Positions 659 to 62,890 of a stretch of DNA of 64,000 nucleotides are shown here, one piece after another; positions within the stretch are counted from its first letter, which is position 1, and each line of letters begins with the position of its first letter. The stretch is from Hermatobates lingyangjiaoensis (taxonomy: Eukaryota; Arthropoda; Insecta; Hemiptera; Hermatobatidae). Below the pieces are notes generated by a model. The model saw nothing but the letters and a program-made list of their open reading frames with translations, had not been told where the DNA came from and searched no databases. The stretch spans positions 342,001 to 406,000 of the forward strand of contig JAPFBL010000527.1 in assembly GCA_026182355.1 (NCBI GenBank), given 5' to 3'. Both the position numbers and the translations under genes were made by a program.

Positions 659-1135
659 TTGTGTATTTTGGGAGCAGACCTTCAATCAAACATGTTTTAT
701 TAAAAATTATGCCAATTTTAACTTTTGTTCATTTCCGAGTTAATTTTTCAAGTTTTCTCACTATGGATTTCCACCTTTATGGTAAAATATAAAGTAATTC
801 ACCAAAAGATTTATTTGTTAATAATGTTAATAATTGTGTTAATAATTTAGATAGTTCTTATTTTTGTATTTGAGTTCTGTTATGATTTAGTTATTAGTGC
901 CTGAAGATGGTCAGAGCTGACCGAAACGTCGTATATACTTTGTATGTAATGTTAATTTGTTTGTTATGGTTAAAACTTGTTAGTGAATAAAATGGAAGTC
1001 AAGAATAAATCTTTTGGTGAATTACTTTATATTTTACCAGAAAGGTGGAAATCCATAGTGAGAAAACTTGAAAAATTAACTCGGAAAAAAACAAAAGTTA
1101 AAATTGGCATAATTTTTAATAAAACATATATATAT
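659..1135. mobile_element. PLE inverted dimer, ACGT-C hammerhead family
   Basis: The minus arm (about 659-820) starts at (TA)n with the long end GGGAGCAGACCTTC. The plus arm (about 897-1125) runs from an intact hammerhead through an open reading segment (FGELLYILPERWKS, KIGIIFNKT) into (TA)n with the short end. That peptide is the recurrent start of PLE ORFs here. The arms share the N-terminal coding part; the minus arm is truncated before the ribozyme. Confidence 0.7.
897..934 (+). ncRNA. Hammerhead ribozyme (PLE), helix III palindrome ACGT
   Basis: Core CTGAAGA (901-907), extra T, helix II GGTCAG/CTGACC with an AG loop, GAAA (923-926), palindrome ACGT (926-929), cleavage base C930. Helix I pairs GTGC (897-900) with GTAT (931-934), including two G-U pairs. 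This is one of the cleanest cores in the window. Confidence 0.75.
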
Positions 1136-1187
1136 CAGTTCACAAACGAAGAAAAGCAACACACAGAGAAAAAGACACACTTAAAAA

Positions 1188-1218
1188 CTCAAATTTTCGG
1201 ATGATCCGTCTTCAGGAG
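1188..1218 (-). ncRNA. Hammerhead ribozyme (PLE), helix III palindrome AATT
   Basis: Minus-strand core: CTC, CTGAAGA, extra C, GGA-TCA-TCC, GAA, AATT, T, GAG. Helix I is CTC/GAG. All core positions match the hammerhead consensus apart from the extra base after A9. Confidence 0.7.
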
Positions 1219-1445
1219 AAAAGAGAGAATGGGCGACCAAGCACGCCGGAAACACAACGGCAGGAAACCCAGTTTAACGAAGATCGTAAGTCAATAATAC
1301 ATAAACTTAGAAGTAAAACAAGATATACTCCTAGAGCAAAAAATAGCAAAAGAACAACAAACTCAAAGAAATAAATGTTATGAGTTAAAAATCAACAAGA
1401 ACTGCTTGTCTTTGAAACAAAGTAAAAAATGATGGTTACAATAGT

Positions 1446-1735
1446 GAGAATATTAAAAGGTAGTAAGAAACAGGAGAGAAAAGAAAAAAATCGACACAAA
1501 AGAAACGATAATAGGAATGAAATAGCGTTAAAACAAAAAAATAGCGTTAAAACAAAAAAATAAGAACACAAAGTTAAAACAGGCAAGAGTAACAGAGAAT
1601 ATTAAAAGGTAGTAAGAAACAGGAGAGAAAAGAAAAAAATCGACACAAGAGAAACGATAATAGGAATGAAATGGCATTAAAAGAAAAAAATAAGAACACA
1701 AAGTTAAAACAGGCAAAAGTAACAGCACAGAAGGT
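1446..1735. repeat. Direct duplication of about 140 bp
   Basis: The block beginning GAATATTAAAAGGTAGTAAG and ending AAAACAGGCAA occurs twice head-to-tail (from about 1447 and from about 1598) with few differences. The first copy has an extra AAACAAAAAAATAGCGTT segment. It lies inside a PLE-like unit. Confidence 0.7.
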
Positions 1736-1898
1736 CACAAGGTTGCCCATAGCGCACTAAAATCCACTTAAAATTCGAAAAAACGATCCAAACTGGACGC
1801 AAATCAGTTCACAAACGAAGAAAAGCAACACACAGAGAAAGAGACACGGAAACCTGCCGTTGTGTTTCCGGCGTGCTTGGTCGCCCATTCTCTCTTTT

Positions 1899-1929
1899 CT
1901 CCTGAAGACGGATCATCCGAAAATTTGAG
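1899..1929 (+). ncRNA. Hammerhead ribozyme (PLE), helix III palindrome AATT
   Basis: CTC (1899-1901), CTGAAGA (1902-1908), extra C, GGATCATCC helix II, GAAA (1919-1922), AATT, T1926, GAG. It is the same family as 1188-1218 in the opposite orientation. Confidence 0.7.
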
Positions 1930-1949
1930 TTTGTAAGTGTGTCTCTTTC

Positions 1950-1993
<44 letters not shown>

Positions 1994-1997
<4 letters not shown>

Positions 1998-2262
1998 ATT
2001 AAAAGAAACGGTCCAGCGGACTTTTTTAAAAATAAAATAAATTCAAAGCGAAGGAAACACACAGAAAGACACAGACATAACTCACATCGATATTTCGACC
2101 ATCGTCGTCATCAGGAGGTGCGAAGAGCGAAGAGTCCCGCAGGAAGACAGGGCGGTGACTCTCTTCTCTCTTCACACCTCCTGATGACTAAGATGGTCGA
2201 AATATCGATGTGAGTTATGTCTGTGTCTTTCTGTGTGTTTCCTTCGTTTTGAATTTATTTTA
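1994..2262. mobile_element. PLE inverted dimer, GACGATGGTC hammerhead family
   Basis: The minus arm begins after (TA)n with the long tail containing GGTCCAGCGGAC (a small hairpin). The plus arm ends in the short form GAATTTATTTTAT before (TA)n. The hammerhead on the minus arm is intact (2084-2120). On the plus arm helix II is broken (CTGATGACTAAGATGGTC at 2181-2198). The unit lies in the intron just 3' of lipase exon D. Confidence 0.75.
2084..2120 (-). ncRNA. Hammerhead ribozyme (PLE), helix III palindrome ATAT
   Basis: Minus strand: CTGATGA (2108-2114), extra C, GAC-GATG-GTC, GAA, ATAT, C, then GATGTG. It pairs imperfectly (one mismatch) with CACCTC upstream of the core as helix I. Confidence 0.7.
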
Positions 2263-2315
2263 TTTATATATATATATATATTATATATATATTATTTGAA
2301 GAGGAAGTGACTTAC

Positions 2316-2472
2316 CCCATGCTGGGACACACTTGACCTGGAGGACAAGGAAAGCATTCCCCAGCAAGAAAGGCTTCATAAGAAGTACAAGCAACAGCAG
2401 GGAACTGACACTTAGGGCTGACAGAGTCTGTGAAGAACTTGTAGGCTCTGCGGTGATTGCACAGGGACCTAC
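2316..2472 (-). CDS. Lipase exon D (catalytic His, lid end and Cys-rich segment)
   Basis: Encodes RSLCNHRRAYKFFTDSV, then ACTSYEAFLAGECFPCP and CPSMG. The His in CNHRRAY aligns with the catalytic histidine (His263 in human pancreatic lipase). CTSYEAF-GECFPC-CPSMG is the Cys-rich stretch that follows in the family. The acceptor is TGGCAG|GTAG (or four bases downstream, paired with the alternative exon C donor) and the donor is ATGGG|GTAAGT. The remaining C-terminal exons, including any PLAT domain, should lie beyond the left edge of the window. Confidence 0.9.
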
Positions 2473-2706
2473 CTGCCAGGGCTGCACCGGCTGCAATCAA
2501 AACAACAATTACCTAACCTACCATCTGATATTCTAACAAAAAAAAATATTATTTACATGGAAATACACCAATAATCAATATAGTAAGCAATTACTTATAA
2601 TAAGTAAATCTTCAGGCAACTAAAGCCAGAAGAAAGAAGAACTGCCCGAAAGATCGAGGCCACCGGATCTAAACTAGTGAATGTAGAAGCTGCTGCAAAT
2701 TTCAAC

Positions 2707-3475: not shown

Positions 3476-3660
3476 TGTTTCTTGACCGCTCTATATTCAC
3501 AAGTTTTGAGATTTTTTGAGGGTTTTGGTCTAGATATTAAAAAACGCTTCTTCGCTAACGTTTCGACATATATTTCTGTCCTCTTCAGGGCTAAAACATA
3601 ATACATTGAGCATAAATATTACGACTACATTAGCTAATATGTAACAAAAAAGTTAAACTA
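3476..3660 (-). mobile_element. PLE pseudo-LTR piece with hammerhead, minus strand
   Basis: A single minus-oriented pseudo-LTR flanked on its 3' side by the short (TA)n near 3450-3465. An intact hammerhead core lies at 3554-3591. I see no plus-arm partner. Confidence 0.6.
3554..3591 (-). ncRNA. Hammerhead ribozyme (PLE), helix III palindrome ACGT
   Basis: Minus strand: CTGAAGA (3582-3588), extra G, GACA...TGTC helix II with a loop of about 8 bases, GAA, ACGT, T, AGCG. Helix I is weak: GCC/AGC with a mismatch next to the cleavage site. Confidence 0.6.
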
Positions 3661-4049: not shown

Positions 4050-4345
4050 TATATTGGTGATAGAATTATTTCTGGATGTTATGGAAGATCATAGTGTTAA
4101 TTTAAGAAATGTATAATGTATATAGTTGTGATTAGTAGGAATAAGTTTTTTTTTTATAAATATGATTAACTCTGAAGATGGCCAAGGAGACCGAAACATG
4201 TCAGTTATAAATAATACAGCATTTGGAGAACTAGTGTCTTTAGTACCACAAAGATTTAAAACAAAGATGAGAAAACTTGTAAGATGGACAATGAAATTTA
4301 TTCATGCCACAGTACAAAGGTCGTTCAACAAAATATGTGTATATA
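4050..4345 (+). mobile_element. PLE pseudo-LTR, ACATGT hammerhead family
   Basis: A plus-oriented pseudo-LTR with a hammerhead at 4167-4207, followed by an N-terminal coding segment (FGELVSLVPQRFKTKMRKL) that ends in a short TA run at 4340-4350. A second copy of the terminal part (RKLERWTMKFIHDTVQRS) is at 53870-53995. It lies directly downstream of the C-terminal ORF fragment at 3795, consistent with one 5'-truncated element. Confidence 0.65.
4167..4207 (+). ncRNA. Hammerhead ribozyme (PLE), helix III palindrome ACATGT
   Basis: TAACT (4167-4171), CTGAAGA (4172-4178), extra T, GGCCAAGGAGACC (helix II with one mismatch), GAAA (4193-4196), ACATGT, C4202, AGTTA. Helix I is a perfect 5-bp TAACT/AGTTA pairing. 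Confidence 0.65.
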
Positions 4346-5614: not shown

Positions 5615-5700
5615 ATGATCGTCTATATATCAATCAAATCACGTGACTTCTACTGATGATGAGGGCGATTAATCGAAATATATACGGATAAAACAAACTT
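5613..5700 (+). mobile_element. Short PLE remnant with hammerhead-like core
   Basis: After the (TA)n at 5559-5612, CTGATGA (5653-5659), extra T, GAGGGCGATTAATC and GAAATATATA resemble a hammerhead with only two helix II pairs. It is a single small piece. Confidence 0.35.
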
Positions 5701-6065: not shown

Positions 6066-6173
6066 TAGGTTTTACTGGTTTTCATCAGAGCCACAAGCTG
6101 ATGGCCCTGAAAACCAAATTTTTGATTGAAGAATCATATTTGTTGCAGAGGAATAACAAATTGATATACATAC

Positions 6174-6401
6174 ACCAGACGAGGTCGGTGAAAGCGCCTA
6201 CAAACAAGTTACTACAGCCTTTCTGCATCCTGCCGCCATTGGGATAGAAGTCAACATGGCCCATAGGCTGCCATGATCCCAGGCCGCCTAGGATGAGCGC
6301 TTCGCCATTGCTGTGGATGACATCGACGTAGCGAGCATCGCCTGCATCCAGTCGAAGACTGGCCTCTTGCGACTCGAACAGTGGTCCGGCAGGGTCAAGA
6401 C
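6174..6401 (-). CDS. Lipase exon C (catalytic Asp, GLDPAGPLF)
   Basis: Begins by completing RITGLDPAGPLFES, where the Asp of LDPAG is the second triad member. It continues through RLDAGDARYVDVIHSNG, LGSWQPMGHVDFYPNGG and KGCSN to DLVW. VDFYPNGG is a hallmark of the family. The acceptor is GACCTCAG|GT. Two donors are possible, GGT|GTATGT (used here) or CTG|GTGTAT; they differ by two bases and both keep frame with a matching acceptor in exon D. The lid loop starts here at KGC and looks shorter than in human pancreatic lipase. Confidence 0.92.
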
Positions 6402-6499
6402 CTGAGGTCAGGCAAAAGTCACGCAAATCATAACAAACGTATTATGTAACAACTAGCAGACGGGTATTTTACAAAAATCAGAGATGATACGTGGTTTTT

Positions 6500-7400
6500 C
6501 AAGAAATATTATTAGAAAAAATATATAGTAGGAAAAAATATATTTATTAGCCCAGTGTTAATAAGTGCATCTGCATTCGCCACATTAGCTGTCTGTCCTC
6601 CAGGTTCATGGAAGAACAGAGAGTCGGAACTTGTAACTCTTGAGCAAGGAACATACAGTTGACCATGTGAGAAACACTTGGTCTCTCTCACTTTTAATTC
6701 CTGCCGTGACAAGTTTGGCCTTGTGACTTATTTATCGTCATTGCGAAACAGACGCTGACGGAAATTGCAACCGTTTGAATTGGAAAGGACAGTTGCTAGG
6801 TATCAATGGTGTGCATGGTATAAACAGTTACTCTCCAATACCACACTCAGTCATGATATCAACCTCTATGACGTATCTGTGCAAAGCACGAATTCGGAGT
6901 CGTGTCCTGTTGCACATTTTTGTTGGGAGCTTAAACGAAAATGAAATTAAAATCAACTAACAATATCTACACCTAAGACAGCTCGCTATCTATGTCTTAT
7001 GGTGGCTGAGTTTACTTGTGACAAAATTATGCAGACAAACTGACCACCCGACAAACCGACTGAACAGAAATTGTTCTATTATTTCAAATAAATAATGTTT
7101 TATTTATCAAGACCTTTCAACACATCGTATTTAATAAACTGAAATTTAGATAATAATAGACAATACAGACATGTATTTTTTCAAAATAAACATGTCTGTG
7201 AAGTTAGCGAAACGCAGCTTAAAAGTCCATATCTTCGCTTCTACGTTGAATTTTCAATCCATTCAATGCTTATACTTTATGTTAAACATACACAAACCTA
7301 CTTTCAAAGTTTCAGCTCGCTATGTCTTATGGTGGCTGAGTTTACTTGTGACTAAATTATGCAAACAAACTGACTGAACAGAAATTGTTCTAAGGGTGTC
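6500..7400 (-). mobile_element. Helitron relic (Pif1-helicase C-terminal region), minus strand
   Basis: The minus strand near 6570-6715 reads TKCFSHGQLYVPCSRVTSS, the SHGQLYVALSRVTS helicase motif of Helitron Rep-Hel proteins. Nearby (6850-6905) it reads TRLRIRALHRYVIEVDIMT, the CNGTRL region. The 7080-7400 part matches the 5' region of the copies at 33.2 and 35.3 kb. It is fragmented by stops and partly duplicated (CTATGTCTTATGGTGGCTGAG at about 6990 and 7321). It lies in the intron between lipase exons B and C. Confidence 0.7.
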
Positions 7401-7470
7401 CCAAAGAAAAAAACAAGTTGTGTGGAAACAAAAATAATAGTCAAGAAAAACACTCTGGTCGCATTCTTAC

Positions 7471-7702
7471 CTGTTATTCTGTACACATCGCCTAAATGAT
7501 CCCCAGCAAACGCAGCAGCATGGGCTCCTAAGCTAAAGCCGATTATGTGGACCTTTGCTGGGTCCAGCCTGTGCTTGTCCCTTAGCTGAGACAGCAGCAT
7601 GGACAACTGCCTACCGACCATGCGTGTGTTGGCGGCAGCACGCACGTAGTTGGGGAAAGAGGCACCTCCCTCCCAGTCAACGCATACCACGTTGCACTCC
7701 TC
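7471..7702 (-). CDS. Lipase exon B (nucleophilic elbow, GFSLG)
   Basis: Encodes EECNVVCVDWEGGA through HIIGFSLGAHAAAF to DVYRIT plus one base. The serine of GFSLG is the catalytic nucleophile of the alpha/beta-hydrolase fold (Ser152 in human pancreatic lipase). CVDW and the AH after GFSLG are family signatures. The acceptor is GTTTCAG|GAG in phase 0. The donor ATAACAG|GTAAGA leaves one G, which completes the glycine of GLDPAG in exon C. No stop or frameshift interrupts the 77 codons. The product is presumably a secreted acylglycerol or phospholipid hydrolase; the substrate cannot be judged. Confidence 0.92.
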
Positions 7703-7761
7703 CTGAAACACAATTAGCAAATCCCTTCACACCTCTAGCTACATACCATATATATATATAC

Positions 7762-7875
7762 TAGAATTTTTAAAAGAACACATAGAAAAGAAATCACTGA
7801 ACTCACTACTATATTTCGATGTCCTCGTCTTCAGGAAAAGATGTGAATCGCTCCAAAGGCTGATAACGACTCATA
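7762..7875 (-). mobile_element. PLE pseudo-LTR piece with weak hammerhead, minus strand
   Basis: Follows the TA run at 7749-7761. Minus strand: CTGAAGA (7828-7834), extra C, GAGGACATC (two helix II pairs), GAAA, ATAT, A. It resembles the copy at 48614-48735 in the distal CACATAGAAAAGAA segment. Confidence 0.5.
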
Positions 7876-7882: not shown

Positions 7883-8043
7883 AATCAACCACAATATGAA
7901 ATGCGGAAAAAAGAGTAAGATCTTTCAGTTGGGGTTTGACTCTGATGAAGACCGCTTGTTACGGTTGTAAGATCTAGGTCTTGTTTTCCCATTTCTTATT
8001 GTGGTTTGATCATTGATTGTTATTTCACGTGTTTATGTGAAAT

Positions 8044-8047
<4 letters not shown>
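7883..8047 (+). mobile_element. PLE pseudo-LTR, K family (GACCG...CGGTT), plus strand
   Basis: CTGATGA (7942-7948), extra A, GACCGCTTGTTACGGTT, then GTAA instead of GAAA, so one catalytic-core base is mutated. The 3' end is the long form ending in the hairpin TTTCACGTGTTTATGTGAAA before (TA)n at 8048-8082. A degraded minus scrap (7883-7905) lies to its left. Confidence 0.6.
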
Positions 8048-9805: not shown

Positions 9806-9811
9806 TATATA

Positions 9812-10108
9812 GTTAAATGTACATAAAGAAACAGAGAAATTAAAAACACACACTTACAGTCTCTAATTTTCGGTTGAAACTTCTTCAGGAGAGATAAGAG
9901 AGGGAAACCAACCACACTGGTACAGAGACGGTTGGAGACCCAACTCCAACCGTCTCTGTACCAGTGCGGTTGGTTTCCCTCTCTTATCTCTCCTGAAGAT
10001 GGTTCAACCAAAAATTAGAGACTGTAAGTGTGTGTTTTTCATTTCTCTATGTTTCTTTATGTACATTGAACTGTATTTGTCCATCTCGAATGGTATTTTC
10101 ATCGAATA
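9812..10108. mobile_element. PLE palindrome, GGTTCAACC hammerhead family
   Basis: Arms about 9815-9940 and 9945-10070 are inverted repeats. The right end is long (TTTGTCCATCTCGAATGG...ATCGAATAAG) and the left is short. The minus hammerhead (9861-9892) has a helix II change. The plus one (9989-10018) has AAAA for GAAA. Both are probably inactive, while helix I (TCTC/GAGA) and the AATT palindrome persist. Confidence 0.7.
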
Positions 10109-10109
10109 A

Positions 10110-10142
<33 letters not shown>

Positions 10143-10146
<4 letters not shown>

Positions 10147-10513
10147 TTGATAAAAGCATCGACCGTGGAATAGAAACAAAACTATAGTTTATCGGGACTC
10201 GGTCAGTTCTTCAGGTTCAAATTAAACTCTCATTGCCAACGTTTCGGTCTTTATTTAAAACCTTTTTTATAGGCAAAAGTATAAATTTTGAAACAGAAAA
10301 ACTAAGTATTACATTACAAATTATTTTACAAAGAAAAATCCACATACTAGTTTTCTTTGTAAAATAATTTGTAATGTAATAGTTAGTTTTTTTTTGTTTC
10401 AAAATGTATACTTCTGCCTATGAAAAAGGTTTTAAATAAATACCGAAACGTTGGCAATGAGAGTTTAATTTGAACCTGAAGAACTGACCGAGTCCCGATA
10501 AACTATAGTTTTG
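10143..10513. mobile_element. PLE palindrome, F1 family
   Basis: Arms about 10180-10330 and 10345-10513 are centred near 10337 (TACTAG). The left end is long (ATCGACCGTGGAATAGAAAC) and the right is short, running into (TA)n. Both arms carry the GCC-TATGAAAAA type core, stem GGTTTT/AAAACC-like, GAAACGTTGGC; helix II has small indels. Related plus-strand ends are at 32625-32788 and 62385-62560. Confidence 0.7.
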
Positions 10514-10639
10514 TATATATATATATATATGATATTATATATATATTTTTTTTTGCATTTTTATTATTTATTGTCTTTATTATTATTTCGTATTATATAC
10601 TTTTTATCTTGTTTTATAAATAAATATTGGAGGAATTTC

Positions 10640-28789: not shown

Positions 28790-28935
28790 GTTATAGTGTG
28801 GTATTTACTCATGTTAGGAAAAATATTAAGTCTCTACACAAAGAAAGTTTATTACTAGAAACTAAACAACGCGTTTCGAACACTTGATGTTCCTCTTCAG
28901 GTTACATCTACAAAAAATATATATATGCATTTATG
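28790..28935 (-). mobile_element. PLE pseudo-LTR nested in the DNA transposon
   Basis: Minus-oriented copy containing an intact hammerhead (28865-28903) and ending on one side at ATATATATGCA. The same family is at 29720-29940, outside the transposon. Confidence 0.7.
28865..28903 (-). ncRNA. Hammerhead ribozyme (PLE), helix III palindrome ACGCGT
   Basis: Minus strand: AAC, CTGAAGA (28894-28900), extra G, GAACA-TCAAG-TGTTC, GAA, ACGCGT, T, GTT. Helix I is AAC/GTT. The related family at 40.8 kb has TTC/GAA at the same place, so helix I covaries. Confidence 0.75.
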
Positions 28936-34189: not shown

Positions 34190-34310
34190 GTTTCCGGCGT
34201 GCTTGGTCGCCCATTCTCTCTTTTCTCCTGAAGACGGATCATCCGAAAATTTGAGTTTGTAAGTGTGTCTCTTTCTCTGTGTGTTGCTTTTCTTCGTTTG
34301 TGAACTGATA
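34190..34310 (+). mobile_element. PLE pseudo-LTR, GGATCATCC family, plus strand
   Basis: Nearly identical to 1865-1953 and joined to (TA)n at 34311 by the extended end TTGCTTTTCTTCGTTTGTGAACTGA. It includes an intact hammerhead at 34225-34255. No minus arm is attached. Confidence 0.7.
34225..34255 (+). ncRNA. Hammerhead ribozyme (PLE), helix III palindrome AATT
   Basis: CTC, CTGAAGA (34228-34234), extra C, GGA-TCA-TCC, GAAA (34245-34248), AATT, T34252, GAG. Confidence 0.7.
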
Positions 34311-34377: not shown

Positions 34378-34415
34378 GCCAACGTTTCGTCTTTATTTTA
34401 AGACATCCTCAGGGC
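34378..34415 (-). ncRNA. Hammerhead ribozyme (PLE), helix III palindrome ACGT
   Basis: Minus strand: GCC, CTGAGGA (34406-34412), extra T, GTCTT-AAAATA-AAGAC, GAA, ACGT, T, GGC. Helix I is GCC/GGC. Confidence 0.75.
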
Positions 34416-34544: not shown

Positions 34545-34582
34545 GCCCTGAGGATGTCTTAAAATAAAGACGAAACGTTGGC
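34545..34582 (+). ncRNA. Hammerhead ribozyme (PLE), helix III palindrome ACGT
   Basis: GCC (34545-34547), CTGAGGA, extra T34555, the same GTCTT/AAGAC helix II, GAAA (34572-34575), ACGT, T34579, GGC. It is the mirror copy of 34378-34415. Confidence 0.75.
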
Positions 34583-40845: not shown

Positions 40846-40884
40846 TTCAACGCGTTTCGAACACTTCGTGTTCATCATCAGGAA
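40846..40884 (-). ncRNA. Hammerhead ribozyme (PLE), helix III palindrome ACGCGT
   Basis: Minus strand: TTC, CTGATGA (40875-40881), extra T, GAACAC-GAA-GTGTTC, GAA, ACGCGT, T, GAA. Helix I is TTC/GAA. Confidence 0.8.
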
Positions 40885-41029: not shown

Positions 41030-41067
41030 TTCCTGATGATGAACCAAAGTGTTCGAAACGCGTTGAA
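41030..41067 (+). ncRNA. Hammerhead ribozyme (PLE), helix III palindrome ACGCGT
   Basis: TTC (41030-41032), CTGATGA (41033-41039), extra T, GAAC...GTTC helix II, GAAA (41055-41058), ACGCGT, T41064, GAA. Confidence 0.8.
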
Positions 41068-46067: not shown

Positions 46068-46110
46068 GACTAAGACCTTTCAACCGTAACAAGCGGTCTT
46101 CGTCAGAGCC
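46068..46110 (-). ncRNA. Hammerhead ribozyme (PLE K family), minus copy
   Basis: GGCT, CTGACGA (46100-46106), extra A, GACCGCTTGTTACGGTT, GAA, AGGTCT (one change to a G-U pair), T, AGTC. Confidence 0.7.
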
Positions 46111-46157: not shown

Positions 46158-46200
46158 GACTCTGACGAAGACCGCTTGTTACGGTTGAAAGATCTTAGTC
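46158..46200 (+). ncRNA. Hammerhead ribozyme (PLE K family), helix III palindrome AGATCT
   Basis: GACT, CTGACGA (46162-46168), extra A, GACCG-CTTGTTA-CGGTT, GAAA (46187-46190), AGATCT, T46196, AGTC. Helix I is a perfect GACT/AGTC. The mirror copy on the minus strand is at 46068-46110. Confidence 0.8.
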
Positions 46201-48084: not shown

Positions 48085-48272
48085 TCCTGAAGAAGAATTG
48101 CCCGAAAATGTACATAAAGAAACACACACCTCCAGTCTCTAATTTTCGGTTGAACCGTCTTCAGGAGAGATAAGAGAAAGAAACCAAACGCACTGGTACA
48201 GAGACGGTTGTTTCTTTATGTACATTGAACTGTATTTGTCCATTTCGGATAGTATTTTCATCGAAAAAGTGT
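48085..48272. mobile_element. PLE unit, GGTTCAACC family
   Basis: The minus arm contains an intact hammerhead (48136-48168). A plus scrap with the long end TTTGTCCATTTCGGATAG...ATCGAAAAAG (48213-48272) is fused after GAGACGGTTG. A degraded plus core (CTGAAGA, 48087-48093) precedes it. Confidence 0.65.
48136..48168 (-). ncRNA. Hammerhead ribozyme (PLE), helix III palindrome AATT
   Basis: Minus strand: TCTC, CTGAAGA (48158-48164), extra C, GGT-TCA-ACC, GAA, AATT, A, GAGA. Helix I is TCTC/GAGA. It is the only intact core of this family here. Confidence 0.75.
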
Positions 48273-49388: not shown

Positions 49389-49424
49389 GCTCTAAGGCCT
49401 TTCGTTTTCACGTCTTCAGAGAGC
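49389..49424 (-). ncRNA. Hammerhead ribozyme (PLE), helix III palindrome AGGCCT
   Basis: Minus strand: GCTCT, CTGAAGA (49413-49419), extra C, GT-GAAA-AC, GAA, AGGCCT, T, AGAGC. Helix II is only 2 bp capped by a GAAA (GNRA) tetraloop; helix I is a perfect 5 bp. Confidence 0.7.
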
Positions 49425-49598
49425 AAGTGAATACAAGTTGTAAACAGGTTATGAATTTTGATTTAAAGAAGGAGTAAGATTGGCATCATTGACAGTATTT
49501 TTCCCTATAACTGTTGAAATAGTCTTGATTTGTTTGATAATTCCTTCAATTAGAAATTCATCTAATTTAAAAAGGCCTGGACTAGTGTTGACCAATCT

Positions 49599-50180
49599 TT
49601 GATGTCATCTGTAAGTGAGGAACGTTTTTCAAGAAGGAATTTGCTGGTGGTTCCCTACAGCCCATGTTTAAAAGACATTCCATATTTGTTGAAGAAGCTA
49701 GATATCTCAGTTACATTTAGTAGTGGTGGTAATTTGTCAAATAGACTTGTCCATAACTCTAAAAGAAGCCGAAAAAACTGTTGTGTATACAGAATTCCTT
49801 GCAAGGATTGCGAGTTGGCTTATATTGGACAGACGGGAAAAGGAATGGATACAAGGATTAAGCAACATCAGTATTCAGTTAGAAGACAAGATGATAAAAG
49901 TGCCTTGTTCCTACACATTAGAGACAAAAATCACATAATTAACTGGAAAGAAGCAAAGGAGTTGGTTTTTATGTCATGTGAAAGAAGAAGAAACATTGTT
50001 GAAAGCGCCCTCATAAAAGACTTTTCTAAGAACTTGGTCAACACTAGTCCAGGCCTTTTTAAATTAGATGAATTTCTAATTGAAAGAATTATCAAACAAA
50101 TCAAGACTATTTCAACAGTTATAGGGAAAAATACTGTCAATGATGCCAATCTTACTCCTTCTTTAAATCAAAATTCATAA
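49599..50180 (+). CDS. PLE GIY-YIG endonuclease domain, 5'-truncated ORF
   Basis: An open frame of 193 codons. After a linker (LLVVPYSPCLKDIPYLLKKL), the endonuclease core reads CCVYRIPCKDC, AYIGQTGKG, RIKQHQYSVR and later a Glu in NIVESALIKDF. These are the GIY-like and YIG motifs with the Arg, His and Glu expected of the fold. The RT is missing because the copy begins at the dimer junction. The first ATG is only the first available one. In PLEs this domain nicks target DNA; this truncated frame is unlikely to work alone. Confidence 0.8.
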   Translation: MMSSVSEERFSRRNLLVVPYSPCLKDIPYLLKKLDISVTFSSGGNLSNRLVHNSKRSRKNCCVYRIPCKDCELAYIGQTGKGMDTRIKQHQYSVRRQDDKSALFLHIRDKNHIINWKEAKELVFMSCERRRNIVESALIKDFSKNLVNTSPGLFKLDEFLIERIIKQIKTISTVIGKNTVNDANLTPSLNQNS

Positions 50181-50204: not shown

Positions 50205-50240
50205 GCTCTCTGACGACGTGAAAACGAAAGGCCTTAGAGC
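50205..50240 (+). ncRNA. Hammerhead ribozyme (PLE), helix III palindrome AGGCCT
   Basis: GCTCT (50205-50209), CTGACGA (50210-50216), extra C, GTGAAAAC, GAAA (50226-50229), AGGCCT, T50235, AGAGC. It is the mirror of 49389-49424, differing at N7 (C versus A). Confidence 0.72.
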
Positions 50241-50324: not shown

Positions 50325-50417
50325 ATCAATGATCAAACCACGATAAGAAATGAGAAAACAAGACTAAGATCTTTCAACCGCAACAAGCGGTCTTCGTCAG
50401 AGTCAAAAACCCAACTG

Positions 50418-50451: not shown

Positions 50452-50720
50452 AAAAATATGACAATGTTTGTTAACAATGTGTGTTTACAGGAAGGACTGC
50501 TACCAAAATTTACCAATATATATATAGTTTGTTTAGAAGGCCTCAGAGCTTATTTTTCTTTTTCCCCTACGGAATTTTGTCTTATATACATACTCGTATC
50601 TTAGGTGTTGCTAAGATATATATATACCACTTAAAATAAACAGTGACACATAGACTGAAACATAACAAAAGACTCACTTTTCAATATTTCGACCGTAATG
50701 GCGGTCGTCCTCAGGATATA
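50447..50720. mobile_element. PLE end pieces: N-terminal coding end and GACCG-family arm
   Basis: 50447-50516 is a plus N-terminal end with the conserved GGAAGGACTGCTACC...TTTACCAATA running into TA. 50630-50714 is a minus pseudo-LTR with an intact GACCG hammerhead (50680-50714) that ends at CAGGATATATA, immediately after the ribozyme strand 1. 50520-50625 shows nothing identifiable. Confidence 0.65.
50680..50714 (-). ncRNA. Hammerhead ribozyme (PLE), helix III palindrome ATAT
   Basis: Minus strand: CTGAGGA (50708-50714), extra C, GACCG-CCATTA-CGGTC, GAA, ATAT, T, GAAAAG. The upstream helix I strand is replaced by TA repeat, so this copy is clipped at the ribozyme edge. Confidence 0.65.
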
Positions 50721-51120: not shown

Positions 51121-51163
51121 GACTAAGATCTTTCAACCGTAACAAGCGGTCTTCGTCAGAGTC
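51121..51163 (-). ncRNA. Hammerhead ribozyme (PLE K family), minus
   Basis: GACT, CTGACGA (51153-51159), extra A, GACCG-CTTGTTA-CGGTT, GAA, AGATCT, T, AGTC. All helices complete. Confidence 0.8.
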
Positions 51164-51212: not shown

Positions 51213-51255
51213 GACTCTGACGAAGACCGCTTGTTACGGTTGAAAGATCTTAGTC
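51213..51255 (+). ncRNA. Hammerhead ribozyme (PLE K family), plus
   Basis: GACT (51213-51216), CTGACGA, A51224, GACCG...CGGTT, GAAA (51242-51245), AGATCT, T51251, AGTC. Confidence 0.8.
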
Positions 51256-51288: not shown

Positions 51289-51324
<36 letters not shown>

Positions 51325-51582: not shown

Positions 51583-51589
51583 TATATAT

Positions 51590-51828
51590 AAAACCAAAAA
51601 AGCTAAATCGGGATTCTTATAAAACTGTTGGACCTTCCATATTGTTCTAGTAATACAATTTGTAATACGACTAGTTCGTTCATTTTCAAATATTCCTACT
51701 TTCGCCTTTGAAAAAGATTTTGAATAAAATCAAAACTTCGGCAATGAGGGTTGATTGGAAGTGGAAAAAACTGACTGCATCCCAATTTATCGTTTTTAGT
51801 TATATATCTGTTGCACTGTCTAGAACTT

Positions 51829-51838
<10 letters not shown>
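51590..51838 (+). mobile_element. PLE 3' end, F1-like family, plus strand (relative at 53160-53400)
   Basis: GCC-TTTGAAAAA, GATTTTGAATAAAATC, AAAACTTCGGCAATGAG: helix II intact, GAAA mutated to AAAA. Its sister at 53160-53400 has GCC-TTTGAAAAA, GGTTTTGAATAAAATC, AAAACGTCGGC. Both are probably inactive. Confidence 0.6.
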
Positions 51839-51865
<27 letters not shown>

Positions 51866-51867
<2 letters not shown>

Positions 51868-52035
51868 CACAATTAAAAGAAACGGTCCAGCGGACTTTTT
51901 TACAATAAAATAAAAAACGAAGGAAACACACAGAAAGACACAGACATAACTCACATCGATATTTCGACAATCGTCGTCATCAGGAGGTGCGAAGAGCGAA
52001 GAGCGAAGAGTCCCGCAGGAAGACAGGGCGGTACT
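51866..52035 (-). mobile_element. PLE pseudo-LTR, GACGATGGTC family, minus strand
   Basis: Long end with GGTCCAGCGGAC next to TA. The intact core (51962-51983) is CTGATGA, C, GACGATTGTC, GAAATATC. It ends in GAAGAGCGAAGAGCGAAGAG (a 9-bp tandem) and GGGCGGTACTC before TA. Confidence 0.75.
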
Positions 52036-52182
52036 CATATATATATATATATATATATATAATACATTACAGGGCATATATGAGCAGCCAGTACAAGCAA
52101 GATGAACAAGCGTTGAGAAATATCATCTTTAAGCACGTTTCAACACGTTTCAATCTATTTATTCTCTATTAGTCCAGTTATA

Positions 52183-52508
52183 CCGTTGACCTTTCAATTC
52201 TTTAATTCTAACCGCTTGTTTCTTGTTCATTATTGACCTTTGACCTTCTGTTTATATTAACCTGTACTAATCCTTTTAATCTATTTATAGCAATGACTAA
52301 GCATGAGTCATCGATTTTAATTTAACATGTCACTTGGCCTTTCTTGAATTTCTTGGACTTTCAACTCTTTTATTCTAACCGCTTGTTTCTTGTTCATTAT
52401 TGACCTTTGACCTTCTCTTTATATTAACCTGTACTAATCCTTTTAATCTATTAATAGCAATGACTAAGCATGAGTCATCGATTTTAATTTAACTGTCATA
52501 TGGCCAAC
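52183..52508. repeat. Tandem duplication of about 165 bp
   Basis: TTTATTCTAACCGCTTGTTTCTTG through GAGTCATCGATTTTAATTTAAC occurs twice (52200-52330; 52368-52495) with very few differences. Confidence 0.85.
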
Positions 52509-52539
52509 TCCTTTTCCAGTTGAACCCTGTTAGCAGAAG

Positions 52540-52910
52540 GTTAGTTCGTAGGATCGAATCTCTCAGTCTTAAGATCATGAATGCCGAGATTGCAGTTAAT
52601 TTTAATGATACCTGTTTAAAAGAGGATCTGCTACATATTTATACCAATATATATATAAATATAGAATTAAAAGAAACGGTCCAGCGGACTTTTATAAATA
52701 AAATAAATTCAAAACGAAGGAAACACACAGAAAGACACAGACACAACTCACATCGATATTTCGACCATCATCATCATCAGGAGGTGTCACCGCCCTTCCT
52801 GCGGGACTCTTCGCTATTCACACGTCCTGATGACGACGATGGTCGAAATATCGATGTCAGTTATGTCTGTGTCTTTCTGTGTGTTTCCTTCGTTTTGAAT
52901 TTATTTTATA
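52540..52910. mobile_element. PLE pieces: N-terminal end and GACGATGGTC inverted dimer
   Basis: 52540-52650 (plus): RIESLSLKIMNAEIAVNFND then CLKEDLLHIYTNIYI, the PLE N-terminal end at TA. 52668-52910: minus arm (long, GGTCCAGCGGAC) and plus arm (short). The minus core is 52759-52780 with GATGATGGTC; the plus core is perfect. Confidence 0.8.
52823..52856 (+). ncRNA. Hammerhead ribozyme (PLE), helix III palindrome ATAT
   Basis: CTGATGA (52827-52833), extra C, GAC-GATG-GTC, GAAA (52845-52848), ATAT, C, GATGTC. It is the best plus-strand copy of the GACGATGGTC family. Confidence 0.75.
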
Positions 52911-52964
52911 TATATATATATATATTATATATATATATATATATATTATATATAATATATATAT

Positions 52965-53141
52965 AAAGATTTCACATAAACACGTGAAACAACAATCAAT
53001 GATCAAACCACAATAAGGAATGGGAAAACAAGACTAAGATCTTTCAACCGTAACAAGCGGTCTTCGTCTGACGAAGACCGCTTATTACGGTTGAAAGATC
53101 TTAGTCTTGTTTTCCCATTTCTTATTGTGGTTTGATCATTT
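52965..53141. mobile_element. PLE K-family palindrome fused within the ribozyme
   Basis: The minus arm (long tail) and plus arm (short end) meet at CTTCGTC|TGACGAAG near 53069-53070. The 5' base of each ribozyme strand 1 is the junction, and nothing 5' of the ribozyme is retained. Confidence 0.8.
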
Positions 53142-53408
53142 ATATATATATATATAATAAAAAAAGATAAATCAGGATTCTTAAAAACTGATTCACTTTC
53201 CATATTGTTCTAGTAATGCAATTTGTAATAGTTCGTTCATTATCAAATATTCCTACTTTTGCCTTTGAAAAAGGTTTTGAATAAAATCAAAACGTCGGCA
53301 ATGAGGGTTTGATTGGAAGTGGAAGAAACTGACTGCATTCCGTAGTAGACTTATTGTCTGTCACTCTGTTGATTAGTAATCTATTTTAAAGGTGATGAGG
53401 TTACTTAC

Positions 53409-53483
53409 TTGAGTGAGAGGAAGCGAATCTCAAGTACAACAGCAATACGAAGTAAGGGCTGATCACCATCACCGCAGTGGCGC
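53409..53483 (-). CDS. Signal-peptide exon, probable first coding exon of the lipase gene
   Basis: On the minus strand an acceptor (TTTTGTTGCAG) is followed by 14 bases, then ATG (53469-53467) and about 20 codons reading MVISPYFVLLLYLRFASSHS. They have the hydrophobic core and small-residue end of a signal peptide. A donor, TCAA|GTAAGT, follows. The open codon base (A) fits the phase of the exon at 11.6 kb, giving S-GTPWA. It is a small unique island among PLE pieces. Assignment to the lipase gene is inferred from strand, phase and the secreted nature of lipases. A separate secreted-protein gene is possible. Confidence 0.5.
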
Positions 53484-53511
53484 CTGCAACAAAACATACC
53501 ACCTTATATTA

Positions 53512-53556
<45 letters not shown>

Positions 53557-53567
53557 GTATATATCTA

Positions 53568-53800
53568 ATGAAATGATCAAACCACAATAAGAAAATGAGA
53601 AAACAAGACTAAGATCTTTCAACCGCAACAAGCGGTCTTCGTCAGAGTCAAAAACCCAACTGAAACACTAGACGCAGAAAACATCTGGTGAGGAGTTGAG
53701 AAGAGTGGGAGGGAAGAGTGGTTGAAAGATCTTAGTCTTGTTGTCTTGTTTGGTCATTGATTGTTATTTCACGTGTTTATGTGCAATCATTTTACCTTAT
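53568..53800. mobile_element. PLE K-family unit, minus arm intact
   Basis: Minus hammerhead 53607-53649 (GACT, CTGACGA, A, GACCGCTTGTTGCGGTT, GAA, AGATCT, T, AGTC). The plus side (53720-53800) keeps only GGTTGAAAGATCTTAGTC and the long tail, with a deletion. Confidence 0.7.
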
Positions 53801-53824
53801 ATATATATATATCATGATGTCCTT

Positions 53825-53868
<44 letters not shown>

Positions 53869-53869
53869 T

Positions 53870-53990
53870 ATAATACCAGTAAGATTTAAAAGTGAGAAAG
53901 CTTGAAAGATGGACAATGAAATTTATTCATGACACAGTACAAAGGTCGTTCAACAAAACATATATAAAAGAAGGATTGCACCCTAAATTT

Positions 53991-54034
<44 letters not shown>

Positions 54035-54179
54035 ATTTCAAATAAACACGTGAAATAACAATCAATGATCAAACCACCATATGAAATGGGAAAAAGAGGA
54101 AGATCTTTCAACCTTAACCATCGGCCTTCGTTAGAGTCAAAAACCCTACTGAAACTTTCTGCATCTAGTATTTGATCAT

Positions 54180-54221
<42 letters not shown>

Positions 54222-54355
54222 TATATAAAATAAATTCAAAACGAAGGAAACACACAGAAAGACACAGACATAACTCACATCAATATTTCGACCATCGTCG
54301 TCATCAGGAGGTGTGAAGAGCGAAGAGTCCCGCAGGAAGGCAGGGCGGTGAAATG
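53870..54355. mobile_element. Three PLE end pieces
   Basis: 53870-53995 (plus): N-terminal end of the ACATGT family ending GGATTGCACCCTAAATTTAC at TA. 54032-54180: eroded K-family minus arm (long). 54230-54352: GACGATGGTC minus arm (short) with an intact core at 54286-54307. Confidence 0.65.
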
Positions 54356-54379
54356 TATATATACTCTTTCGTTTGAAAT

Positions 54380-54764
54380 ATGATTCGAAACGAGCAAATT
54401 AGTTCAATGTTTGGTTTCCAAACATTGGTTTGTACACAAATACAGTGCGTTTGGTTTCCCTCTCTTATCTCAATACGGTTCAAACCGAAAATTAGAGACT
54501 GTAAGTGTGTAGTTTTAATTTCTCTATGTTTCTTTTTCAACATTGAACTATATATATATATATAATACTTTAAATAAACTGTTACACATAGAAAGAAACG
54601 TAACAGAAATATCATTTTTCAATATTTTGACCGTTATGGTCAAATATATATATATATAGTTCACACAGGAAAGAGAAAAACAAATAAGAACACACACAAA
54701 AGACTAACAACGATATTTCGATATTCGTCGTCATCAGGCAAAAGTAATCCTTTAGTAGCTGAAG

Positions 54765-54768
<4 letters not shown>
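54380..54768. mobile_element. Three further PLE end pieces
   Basis: 54380-54550 (plus): GGTTCAACC-type core damaged (CTCAATACGGTTCAAACC, GAAAATTAGAG). 54563-54645 (minus): damaged GACCG core (TTTTGACCGTTATGGTC). 54660-54768 (minus): CTGATGA, C, GACGAATATC, GAAATATC with only two helix II pairs. Confidence 0.55.
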
Positions 54769-54811
<43 letters not shown>

Positions 54812-54816
<5 letters not shown>

Positions 54817-55021
54817 GATTTCACATAAACACGTGAAACAACAATCAATGATAAAACCACAATAAGAAATGGGAAAACAAGACTAAGATCTTTCAACCGT
54901 AACAAGCGGTCTTCTTCAGAGTCAAAAACCCAACTGCTAGTTTTTGACTCTGACGAAGACCGCTTGTTTCGGTCGAAAGATCTTAGTCTTGTTTTCCCAT
55001 TTCTTATTGTGGTTTTATCAT

Positions 55022-55022
<1 letters not shown>
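54812..55022. mobile_element. PLE K-family inverted dimer
   Basis: The minus arm is long (hairpin tail) and the plus arm is short (ATCATTGATATA). The minus core (54881-54923) is CTGAAGA, A, GACCG...CGGTT. The plus core (54946-54988) is CTGACGA, A, GACCG-CTTGTTT-CGGTC, where the closing G-U pair becomes G-C. A K-family tail scrap follows at 55055-55093. Confidence 0.82.
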
Positions 55023-55061
<39 letters not shown>

Positions 55062-55126
55062 ATTTCACATAAACACGTGAAATAACAATCAATCCAACTC
55101 CAACTCATACTTGGATTCATCTAGAC

Positions 55127-58070: not shown

Positions 58071-58514
58071 ATGTGGGTCGCCTGTTACCAAAAGGGTGCC
58101 ACAAAATAAATGAGACATACTTTCCACCCCTAGAACAACACCAAAACGGTGAAGGCCTTATATGTATGGGCGTGAATACACACAAACAATAACTTAGACC
58201 AGATTACATATCACCAGATTACCAGATAACCTGATAACATATATATGAAAATACTTGAGTATAGAATGAAAAACATATCATCTATGTTGTACTTATATTT
58301 AAACATTTAACATGTTTATAATATTTGTTGTGTACACCAATAAATATACTTGTATTTGCAGAGGAAAGCAAAAATCTTCGCTTTCAAATTATTCTGGGTA
58401 TAATTCGCAATAGATAATGCAAACACTCAGTATTTTATAATTATACAAACACACAAAAATATATTATATATAATTTAATATTAAAAAAAAATAAAATTAA
58501 ATTAATAACTTTTT

Positions 58515-58755
58515 AAAAAATTACACAAAGCACGACACAGAAAAGAGAATAAAAGAAACTTACAGAATTCAAATAAACTTATATATTAATATATATATAT
58601 ATTATTATATTCATGATAAACGAAAAACGGTCCGGCAGGACAAATAACAATTAAAATAAGCAGTGACACATAAACAAAAAAACAACAAAGACTCACTTTT
58701 CAATATTTCGACCGTAATGGCGGTCGTTGAGGACGACCGCCATTACTACAATATA
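58515..58755 (-). mobile_element. PLE ends: truncated GAACAACAGTTC arm and GACCG arm
   Basis: 58515-58560 stops at ACAGAATTCAAATAAAC. 58600-58755 has the long tail GGTCCGGCAGGAC, core TTTCGACCGTAATGGCGGTCG (58706-58726), then an inverted TTGAGGACGACCGCCATTAC: another dimer centred at the ribozyme strand 1. Confidence 0.7.
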
Positions 58756-61051: not shown

Positions 61052-61374
61052 TAATATTAAAAGAAACGGTCCAGCGGACTTTTTTTAATAAAATAAATTC
61101 AAAACGAAGGAAACACACAAAAAGACACAGACATAACTCACATCGATATTTCGACCATTGTCGTCACCAGGAGGTGTGAAGAGCGAAGAGTCACGCAGGA
61201 AGGCAGGGCGGTGAGTTGGTTGAGTTTACTTGTACAAAATTTTGAGGACAAACCAACAGACAGAAATTTTTCTAAGGGTGGATTCGGGTTTCTCTAATAT
61301 ATGAAACATAAAGATAACTTGAAATCAGTTAGTTCTAAGTAATGTAGAGGTACAATTTTTTTTATTTATATAGA
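61052..61374 (-). mobile_element. PLE GACGATGGTC arm fused to a Helitron 5' end
   Basis: 61052-61215: minus PLE arm (long end), core CTGGTGA, C, GACAATGGTC, GAAATATC. 61216-61374: Helitron leader in minus orientation ending with TC at 61374 preceded by A, as in the copies at 31326 and 33211. Confidence 0.65.
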
Positions 61375-61572
61375 TATACTGCTACAAAGCTATTGTTTAT
61401 TTTACTGAATTAAGAAAGTAACGCTCGAGTTACTAATTGCATTTCTCTCGAGTGTGTAATAAACCAAGACGAAAAGCTGTCTTTTTATTATTATTATAGC
61501 ATAAATTATTATTCATTTGGGATGTTTGCGGAGAAAGTAAACTAAATAACCTTGAAATGCGTTTGTCTATAT

Positions 61573-61574
<2 letters not shown>

Positions 61575-61608
<34 letters not shown>
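61575..61608. repeat. (GA)n microsatellite
   Basis: AGAGAG x about 16. Flanking 61380-61760 has no gene seen. Confidence 0.9.
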
Positions 61609-61613
<5 letters not shown>

Positions 61614-61814
61614 TGTGATATGCAGAGAAAGTGCGTTCTGCAGCATCACTGGCAGTCTGGTACGTGACCAGGTATTTTCTTCCGCCTGCTGGACCTCCCT
61701 ACAGGCAGAATCCCACCAATAAACACTTTCTTCCAAACCTCCCCGACTCCTAACAACTCTCCATACAAATATATATATATTATATATATAAATATTATAT
61801 ATATATATTAATAT

Positions 61815-62050
61815 ATGGTGTTAAATTGAATTGCCTAATTAAACATACCTTTTTTTGAGCAGTTTTTCATATTTCCTTGCTAATTTTAAATCGTCTTGAT
61901 TTAGCTGGTGGATTATTTGAGCGAAACTCTGGTAAGCCATCTTAAATATGAAAATAAGAAAAAAGGAACAACATTATCTAGCCTCATAAAAGAGATCACT
62001 GTAAAAAAAAGGTATGTTTAATTAAGGCAATTCAGTTTAACACAATATGT
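61815..62050. mobile_element. PLE-like inverted unit with a short N-terminal peptide
   Basis: Arms 61820-61856 and 62005-62045 (GTTAAATTGAATTGCCTAATTAAACATACC and complement) lie between TA tracts. The minus strand between them reads MAYQSFAQIIHQLNQDDLKL then ARKYEKLL, possibly the start of an element ORF. The right side ends with GAAGGTCTGCTCCC...TTTATACTAATATA, the common PLE end. Confidence 0.45.
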
Positions 62051-62078
62051 TAAAAGAAGGTCTGCTCCCTATTTATAC

Positions 62079-62116
<38 letters not shown>

Positions 62117-62129
62117 AATATATATCATA

Positions 62130-62700
62130 TAGGTGTGTTCTCTAATCGGAGTTCGGTCAATTTTCCAGGATAAAAATTAAACTCTCGTTGCAACGTTTGT
62201 TTTATTTAAAACTTTTCATAGAGAAGTAAGAATTTTTTAACAAAGAAAATGAAATTTACATTATTTAAAGGAACAACAATGTTACGGACAAAACCTTCGA
62301 CTAGACTTAATATATATATAATATATATTATATATATATATATATATATTTAATTTATTTTTGATAAAGTATCGACCGTGGAATAAAACAACATAAAGTT
62401 TTCTTTTATTGTTATTTAATATTAGAAATAATAATTAATAATTTTTCTTATATTTCTTCTGTTTTTGTAGGCCTATGAAAAGGTTTTAAATAAACCGAAA
62501 CGTTGGCAATGAGAGTTTATTGAACTGAGAATGACGAGTCCGATAAACTTTAGTTTTGTATATAAATGGTTCAATGTACATAAATAAACATAGAGAAATT
62601 AAAAGCACACAATTACAGTTTCTAATTTTCGCGCTGAATTAATGCGCTGAACCAGCATCTCCCTCGTCAACTGCGTATTGTGTTTCTCCTGTGTGTGTTT
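62130..62700. mobile_element. Eroded PLE ends, F1 and GGTTCAACC families
   Basis: 62130-62300 (minus) parallels 21783-22075 but lacks many single bases in runs. 62385-62560 (plus) parallels 10345-10513. 62570-62640 (minus) parallels 9812-9900. No intact core. Confidence 0.6.
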
Positions 62701-62744
62701 TAATTATATATATATATAATTATATATATATATATATAACTTTA

Positions 62745-62890
62745 AATTACACAAAGCACGACACAGAAAGAGAATAAAAGAAACTTACAGAATTCAATAT
62801 TTCGAACTGTTGTTCGTCATCAGGAGAGTAGACTAGAAGGGAGGACGAAGTGAGAGAGATTTCCCACGTCGAAGAACGGGCGCGAATGAT
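62745..62890 (-). mobile_element. PLE pseudo-LTR, GAACAACAGTTC family, minus strand
   Basis: Next to (TA)n (62705-62740). The core at 62796-62826 is intact; the segment beyond (GAGAGTAGACTAGAAGGGAGG) matches 22.94 kb. Confidence 0.7.
62796..62826 (-). ncRNA. Hammerhead ribozyme (PLE), helix III palindrome ATAT
   Basis: Minus strand: CTC, CTGATGA (62817-62823), extra C, GAAC-AACA-GTTC, GAA, ATAT, T, GAA. Helix I has two pairs (TC/GA). Confidence 0.65.

Follow-up and report, generated by a model that had tools for sequence, protein, structure and literature searches.

Candidate hammerhead ribozymes with a palindrome in place of helix III, probably acting as dimers, in Penelope-like elements of Hermatobates lingyangjiaoensis

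How could a hammerhead ribozyme act when the place of its helix III is taken by a palindrome that has no loop? The question is raised by a 64,000-nt stretch of the genome of Hermatobates lingyangjiaoensis (assembly GCA_026182355.1, contig JAPFBL010000527.1, positions 342,001 to 406,000), here called the window, in which short repeats carry hammerhead-like cores and lie among remains of Penelope-like elements (PLEs). We suggest that these motifs are very probably minimal type I hammerheads in the pseudo-long terminal repeats (pseudo-LTRs) of about 16 PLE families, and that they would work as palindrome-paired dimers. Positions below are those of the window, with the strand given as a sign.

Rescanning both strands of the window for CTGANGA gave 63 sites. 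Twenty-nine of them are strict cores, by which we mean CTGANGA followed by one extra base and then by a helix II that has 3 bp or more and runs up to GAAA. These have the make-up of a hammerhead, CUGANGA and GAAA joined by helix II, and they far exceed the chance level: 200 first-order Markov simulations with the same dinucleotide steps produced a mean of 1.06 cores per window and never more than 5. For palindromic cores, the same simulations gave a mean of 0.11 and a maximum of 2. When the best of offsets 0-2 was picked, the spacer between A9 and helix II held one extra base in 28/29 strict cores, the exception being the likely chance hit at 29349-.

A strict palindrome opens at the last A of GAAA (A15.1) in 26 of the 29 strict cores, and in 27 when G-U pairs are allowed. 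By comparison, a 4- or 6-nt palindrome follows 128 of the 1042 other GAAA sites in the same window (12.3%), counted where GAAA is not within 60 bases of any core. Since copies of one family are not independent, families were grouped by hand, and in this unselected strict set the palindrome was present in 11/12 families, the miss being 29349-. One of the non-palindromic cores, 46106-, reads AGGTCT and is self-complementary only with G-U, a natural change from AGATCT in which self-pairing was kept; another, 29807-, is a decayed copy of a family with ACGCGT. Five extra families whose helix II is no longer than about 2 bp (F5, F6, F9, F12 and F16; site list and family labels were all assigned by hand) also obey the rule. 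The hand list comprises 16 families with eight palindromes (ACGT, AATT, ATAT, ATATAT, ACATGT, ACGCGT, AGATCT and AGGCCT), and the inner pair of the palindrome is Watson-Crick in 16/16 families, where shuffling would lead one to expect about 5, and each of the four Watson-Crick types is represented. This list holds only palindrome-bearing families, and its 16/16 and 8/8 shuffle results are descriptive and not independent tests; the unselected figures are those given above for strict cores and their families.

Position 17, directly behind the palindrome, is T in nine, C in four, A in three and G in none of the 16 listed families. Helix I offers a test of the layout that makes no use of palindrome symmetry. 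When exactly one base (H17) was skipped after the palindrome, helix I came to 44 contiguous pairs summed over the 16 families, and six other registers gave 1-10 each; representatives were read at the first GAAA with a palindrome behind it, and F10 was thus read at the wrong GAAA. The order A15.1, palindrome, U16.1, H17, helix I is the layout of a hammerhead. C is the usual position 17 base in natural hammerheads. In the nine families with T17, for example at 34228 (+), 46162 (+) and 50210 (+), the dyad stretches to A14-U17. The sequence-only reading that preceded this analysis had described about thirty copies with CTGANGA, N, helix II and GAAA in a dozen or more families, with a palindrome that starts at the last A of GAAA, that differs in sequence while its symmetry is kept, and that is never followed by G. 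All of this was recovered, with 12 families in the strict set and 16 in the hand list.

The hammerhead sites sit in short repeats, many of them ending in (TA)n. The F16 hammerheads flank the end of a Penelope-like open reading frame (ORF) with a GIY-YIG endonuclease (PF01541), and an endonuclease search returned six related proteins that are 35-45% identical. A second GIY-YIG piece (PF01541) lies at 18494-18841, and an RVT_1 match at 19442-19744 scores 23.5 bits, below the cut-off of 29.6. The coding remains are fragments only, and the window holds no ORF of 200 amino acids with a start codon. Thus the combination of reverse transcriptase and GIY-YIG endonuclease that marks a PLE is present as fragments, with the reverse transcriptase match sub-threshold. 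Inverted pseudo-LTRs, one of which may bear a tail, occur as well. Because of the short (TA)n repeats, the F16 hammerheads on either side of the GIY-YIG ORF, and the other GIY-YIG and reverse transcriptase fragments, we identify the motifs as putative minimal type I hammerheads of PLE pseudo-LTRs. That assignment had been made in the sequence-only reading and is borne out by the core, the helix I register, GIY-YIG, the inverted pseudo-LTRs and their tails. The Rfam hammerhead models gave no match in the window at gathering score, and at a low threshold, applied to 46000-55100 alone, the 75 weak matches included no hammerhead; this failure is a limit of the curated model, a match to which is no defining biochemical feature. 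Viral contigs scanned with one F15 core pattern and one ACGT-type pattern yielded no match.

Each ribozyme would then have helix I and a short helix II, and a palindrome without a loop would occupy the position of helix III. Because a loop-less palindrome of 4 or 6 nt cannot fold back on itself, a single molecule could not close it and helix III must form between two ribozymes, an argument already made from the sequence and one that stands. Two ribozymes would pair palindrome to palindrome into a helix III of 4 or 6 bp, and each would complete the active site of its partner, with cutting after position 17. A self-complementary, nearly or fully loop-less helix III is what is found here, as in dimer-acting PLE hammerheads. 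For the copies in the window we infer dimerisation and cleavage that would probably take place between RNAs and probably with the help of the PLE protein. In the T17 families the dimer could form a longer, core-blocking helix including A14 and U17, and this might slow cutting until the protein opens the core.

It is improbable, in our view, that the ribozyme acts as a single molecule aided by protein or tertiary contacts and forms no dimers, since the palindrome would still have no way to close and its symmetry would not be needed. The palindrome might instead be kept as a feature of the DNA, for example as a dyad recognised by the PLE endonuclease or by some factor of the host, and RNA pairing would be incidental. 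The extension of the dyad to A14-T17 in the nine T17 families, which gives DNA palindromes of 6-8 bp, would suit such a role, as would a further family, F17, that keeps ACGT in 12/12 aligned copies although it is without CTGANGA upstream. However, the palindrome fills precisely the space from GAA to H17 and is in register with helix I, and its sequence varies by family while A15.1 and U16.1 stay, where one would expect a site for a single protein to have a constant sequence; we therefore consider a DNA role quite improbable. Inheritance from a few ancestors, with no selection on the palindromes, draws on the sequence matches between some families (F13-F14, F2-F3 and F4-F6) and on the fact that the grouping was made by hand, but eight distinct palindromes at one place, covering all four Watson-Crick inner pairs, make it very improbable.

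Dimers could in principle form in cis or in trans, and here the arrangement of the copies matters. Same-family neighbours within 80 bp number 22, of which 20 are head-to-head, two are tail-to-tail and none is direct. Counted over all repeat arms less than 80 bp apart, the two arms are of one family in 20/20 head-to-head, 2/18 tail-to-tail and 0/8 direct cases (the script prints 19/20 for head-to-head; the F2t/F2 pair is counted here as one family since 1804-1847 matches F2). A second, ribozyme-centred hand list with a 1.5-kb limit gave 12/14, 1/9 and 2/11, respectively, the two direct same-family neighbours (28900-/29807- and 51983-/52780-) lying about 0.8-0.9 kb apart; these two may represent the tandem order of dimer-acting PLE hammerheads. 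A transcript across a head-to-head pair contains one sense and one antisense copy; such pairs cannot yield two sense ribozymes in one RNA, and the in-cis model is therefore weak here. The idea in the sequence-only reading of two ribozymes in one RNA with two pseudo-LTRs accordingly fared poorly. Head-to-head is also given as the most frequent arrangement of inverted pseudo-LTRs in passages of a paper on rotifer PLEs (PMC3846280). Pairing within one RNA, transcribed from tandem elements with two pseudo-LTRs, is nevertheless compatible with palindrome-paired dimers. According to the anole PLE study (PMC11167929), known PLEs frequently occur in tandem, and a single RNA may run through several copies; a review citing Lunse et al. 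ties dimer action to tandem arrangement in the part concerned (PMC6466107); the window has its two direct neighbours, and tandem full-length sources may lie outside it. Set against the lack of close direct partners and the mostly head-to-head order of close same-family copies, these points leave pairing in cis as a possibility that we take seriously without expecting it to hold.

Several observations weigh against dimer-acting hammerheads. The strict core 29349- is without a palindrome and is probably a chance hit. In F9, the register test found no helix I in register; F10 has no contiguous helix I in the strict scan and, being misread in the register test, was counted against the register; and in the ATAT families F4-F8 helix I reaches only 1-2 contiguous pairs before a mismatch. 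Unconstrained two-strand folding placed full palindrome pairing in the minimum-energy dimer for 2/17 sequences from the 16 families (F14 and F16), the others mostly forming different duplexes. The free-energy model ignores the tertiary core. The folding result argues against a dimer that is stable on its own in most families; it fits with the anole PLE hammerhead, which is reported in passages of that study to be inactive without its protein (PMC11167929). Moreover, no F15 arm (0/18) starts near the predicted end of the cleavage product, unit position 52. In this tally of 5' ends, which covers F15, 13/18 arms start at or upstream of the core, nine of those 13 share one common start (unit position 1-2) upstream of which the copies diverge, and 3/18 start inside the core, upstream of position 17. 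Because none starts at the end of the cleavage product, most F15 copies apparently came from RNA not cut by the ribozyme. This agrees with the anole PLE, for which unprocessed RNA was the dominant substrate (PMC11167929). In an F8 arm at 58505-58572 (-), the start is no more than about two bases from the predicted cleavage site.

The head-to-head pairs themselves follow a rule. A 3' tail of about 27-39 nt, reading as a hairpin in F15, can be recognised in five families, and the tail is on exactly one arm in 14/14 scorable head-to-head pairs, with well-separated scores. These 14 were scored out of 21 pairs (the 20 close pairs and F16 at 49419-/50210+); the F2 and F16 pairs, in which the tail was seen once and the 3' ends are unequal, were left out, as were the F1, two F7, F13 and F14 pairs, which have no definable tail. 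If the choice were independent at even odds, 14/14 would have a probability of 0.00006, and the lower rate among unpaired arms (5/18 with a tail) would make it less likely still. In the rotifer paper, the tail is described as optionally present on one of the inverted pseudo-LTRs (PMC3846280), and in passages on the anole PLE enzyme reverse transcription starts at two adjacent sites, with both strands extended (PMC11167929). Together, the one-tail rule, the published optional tail and the two start sites of the anole enzyme suggest that each head-to-head pair represents two separate reverse-transcription starts, one per site. Fold-back copying of one complementary DNA was considered as a source of the pairs and rejected: it predicts equal ends or an arm running into the flank, and the arms end at two different start sites. 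The arms of one pair are not reliably each other's nearest relatives, and their divergence cannot tell one template RNA from two.

This insertion pattern allows another role for the palindrome, which might also, or mainly, serve to start a dimer and keep two template RNAs together during two-sided insertion. A PLE protein dimer would cut and extend both strands and use one RNA as template on either side of a (TA)n break, and the outcome would be head-to-head same-family pairs with one long, tailed arm and one short arm. The palindromic dimer-initiation loop of retroviral RNA offers a comparison. Hints of template pairing are the same-family head-to-head pairs, the apparently uncut templates, and two families with a palindrome and without CTGANGA, which would use pairing without cutting. 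Of these, F17 still has ACGT, a helix II like that of a hammerhead, an intact or variant GAAA and, for the most part, helix I (GCC/GGC), and it commonly shows TATGAAAAA where the CTGANGA box would stand; it is possible to align this box as U3 and A8 with an inserted base, that is, as a putative exchanged core pair. Across the F17 alignment, GAAA is altered in two copies and helix II shows one compensatory change. F17 had also been considered as a hammerhead with a 12-nt palindrome after CTGAAGA, which was rejected, as the alignment puts the hammerhead-like part about 30-60 nt upstream and without CTGANGA. The other family is the AGCGCT variant of the sequence-only reading. It is indeed present, as two head-to-head copies in which GAAAGCGCT follows a GGAC/GTCC helix II, but neither copy has CTGANGA as the 5' box. 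Like F17, this pair retains helix II, the palindrome and, for the most part, helix I and GAAA.

Nevertheless, template pairing seems unlikely to us. The one-tail rule is asymmetric, whereas with a symmetric RNA dimer the two sides might be expected to begin in the same way; the divergence of the arms does not show two different templates; and the conservation of F17 (0.96) is only mildly higher than that of its surroundings (0.92 and 0.84), which is weak evidence. Such a role for the palindrome is not stated in those parts of the PLE hammerhead literature that our search covered, which is no proof of its absence in print. What the one-tail pattern and the apparently uncut templates do is to make testable the question of why PLEs carry hammerheads at all: for cutting, for pairing of template RNAs, or for both.

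Table 1. Positions in the window of the predicted hammerhead cores, the endonuclease, the one-tail pairs and the copies without CTGANGA
Feature	Palindrome	Base 17	Position	Strand	Basis
Core F1	ACGT	C	901..930	+	strict scan, helix I register test
Core F2	AATT	T	1191..1215	-	strict scan
Core F2	AATT	T	1902..1926	+	strict scan
Core F4; left arm of head-to-head pair, tailed	ATAT	C	2089..2114	-	strict scan, alignment, tail scoring
Core F4, helix II changed; right arm without tail (partner 2089..2114)	ATAT		2181..2206	+	CTGANGA list, alignment, tail scoring
Core F10; no contiguous helix I in register	ACGT	T	3557..3588	-	strict scan
Core F12	ACATGT	C	4172..4202	+	palindrome count, register test
Core F9; helix I not found in register	ATATAT	A	5653..5684	+	register test
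Core F5	ATAT	A	7810..7834	-	register test
Core F3; left arm without tail	AATT	A	9864..9888	-	palindrome count, arm list, tail scoring
Core F13	ACGCGT	T	28868..28900	-	strict scan
Core F2	AATT	T	34228..34252	+	strict scan
Core F11; left arm without tail	ACGT	T	34381..34412	-	strict scan, tail scoring
Core F11; right arm, tailed	ACGT	T	34548..34579	+	strict scan, tail scoring
Core F14; left arm	ACGCGT	T	40849..40881	-	strict scan, hand site list
Core F14; right arm	ACGCGT	T	41033..41064	+	strict scan, hand site list
Core F15; left arm without tail	AGGTCT (G-U self-pairing)		46072..46106	-	strict scan, palindrome count, tail scoring
Core F15; right arm, tailed	AGATCT	T	46162..46196	+	strict scan, tail scoring
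Core F3	AATT	A	48140..48164	-	strict scan
Core F16; left arm	AGGCCT	T	49394..49419	-	CTGANGA list, hand site list
GIY-YIG endonuclease end of Penelope-like ORF, between two F16 hammerheads			49566..50177	+	Pfam PF01541, E 2.9e-5
Core F16; right arm	AGGCCT	T	50210..50235	+	hand site list, register test
Core F15	AGATCT	T	50366..50400	-	strict scan
Core F7	ATAT	T	50683..50714	-	strict scan
Core F15; left arm, tailed	AGATCT		51125..51159	-	strict scan, tail scoring
Core F15; right arm without tail	AGATCT		51217..51251	+	strict scan, tail scoring
Core F4	ATAT	C	51958..51983	-	strict scan
Core F4; left arm, tailed	ATAT	C	52755..52780	-	strict scan, tail scoring
Core F4; right arm without tail	ATAT	C	52827..52852	+	strict scan, tail scoring
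Core F15; right arm without tail; helix I lost at junction	AGATCT		53068..53102	+	strict scan, tail scoring
Core F15; left arm without tail	AGATCT	T	53611..53645	-	strict scan, tail scoring
Core F4	ATAT	T	54282..54307	-	strict scan
Core F6	ATAT	C	54712..54737	-	palindrome count, register test
Core F15; left arm, tailed	AGATCT		54885..54919	-	strict scan, tail scoring
Core F15; right arm without tail	AGATCT		54950..54984	+	strict scan, tail scoring
Core F8	ATAT	T	62796..62823	-	strict scan
Head-to-head same-family pairs, tail on one arm (first 7/14)			1994-2268, 7887-8046, 9807-10113, 10143-10520, 34324-34675, 46035-46266, 48120-48270		
Head-to-head same-family pairs, tail on one arm (other 7/14)			51055-51292, 51324-51581, 52665-52909, 52966-53143, 53572-53788, 54817-55025, 62361-62559		
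F17 copies	ACGT		540, 2979, 10445, 20997, 32689, 53289, 62497, 63389	+	
F17 copies	ACGT		2832, 10245, 18095, 21856	-	
AGCGCT head-to-head pair	AGCGCT		5922 (-), 5992 (+)		

Away from the hammerheads, Pfam matched a Lipase domain in two pieces, 6088-6441 and 7355-7726 (-), which are probably exons of a host gene, and self-comparison of the window revealed long tandem repeat arrays at 12278-12819, 23659-25786 and 43003-43768.

How do these ribozymes compare with known ones? Lunse, Weinberg and Breaker (2017) reportedly found that small hammerhead variants of PLEs with a diminished stem III cleave as dimers, to judge from the title and citations of their paper (PMC7761336, PMC6466107), and minimal type I hammerheads of PLEs and Terminons are said to have been described by Cervera and de la Pena (2014) and Arkhipova (2017), whose work we know from citations (PMC7229834, PMC7761336, PMC7936874). 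With the latter, the ribozymes of the window share the core, the open helix I, the absence of a helix III and the position in pseudo-LTRs. With the variants of Lunse et al., as known to us from citations, they share the PLE setting, the diminished stem III and, by our reading, dimer action, and nothing essential is seen to differ. A review of 2019 that cites Lunse et al. states, in the part concerned, that a palindrome is required at the end of stem III (PMC6466107); the palindromic stem III end is thus a further likeness, and the strict palindrome rule, put forward as new in the sequence-only reading, was largely anticipated.

The double hammerheads of newt and axolotl satellite RNA and of avocado sunblotch viroid likewise have a short helix III that is joint to two ribozymes, according to passages of three papers (PMC7229834, PMC6155905, PMC6466107). 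The axolotl types are described there with a helix III loop of four bases, palindromic in one type, which cleaves better as a dimer (PMC7229834), whereas the palindromes of the window have no loop. Poseidon of Anolis, PAc (Frangieh et al. 2024, PMC11167929), resembles the elements of the window, in the passages on it, in its PLE hammerhead, its two reverse-transcription start sites giving an optional tail, its AT-rich targets and the cutting and extension of both strands; the same passages do not mention helix III palindromes or RNA dimers.

The observation is therefore correct and well supported, but for the most part it rediscovers dimer-acting PLE hammerheads; it brings useful counts and a possible link to PLE insertion. 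Self-complementary helices III in many PLE families side by side support the published dimer model from sequence alone, and the palindrome can serve as a tool for finding such ribozymes where curated models miss them. What is added over Lunse et al. is that palindrome classes, helix I register and the use of H17 are counted together in one window, and that they are linked to the architecture of insertion.

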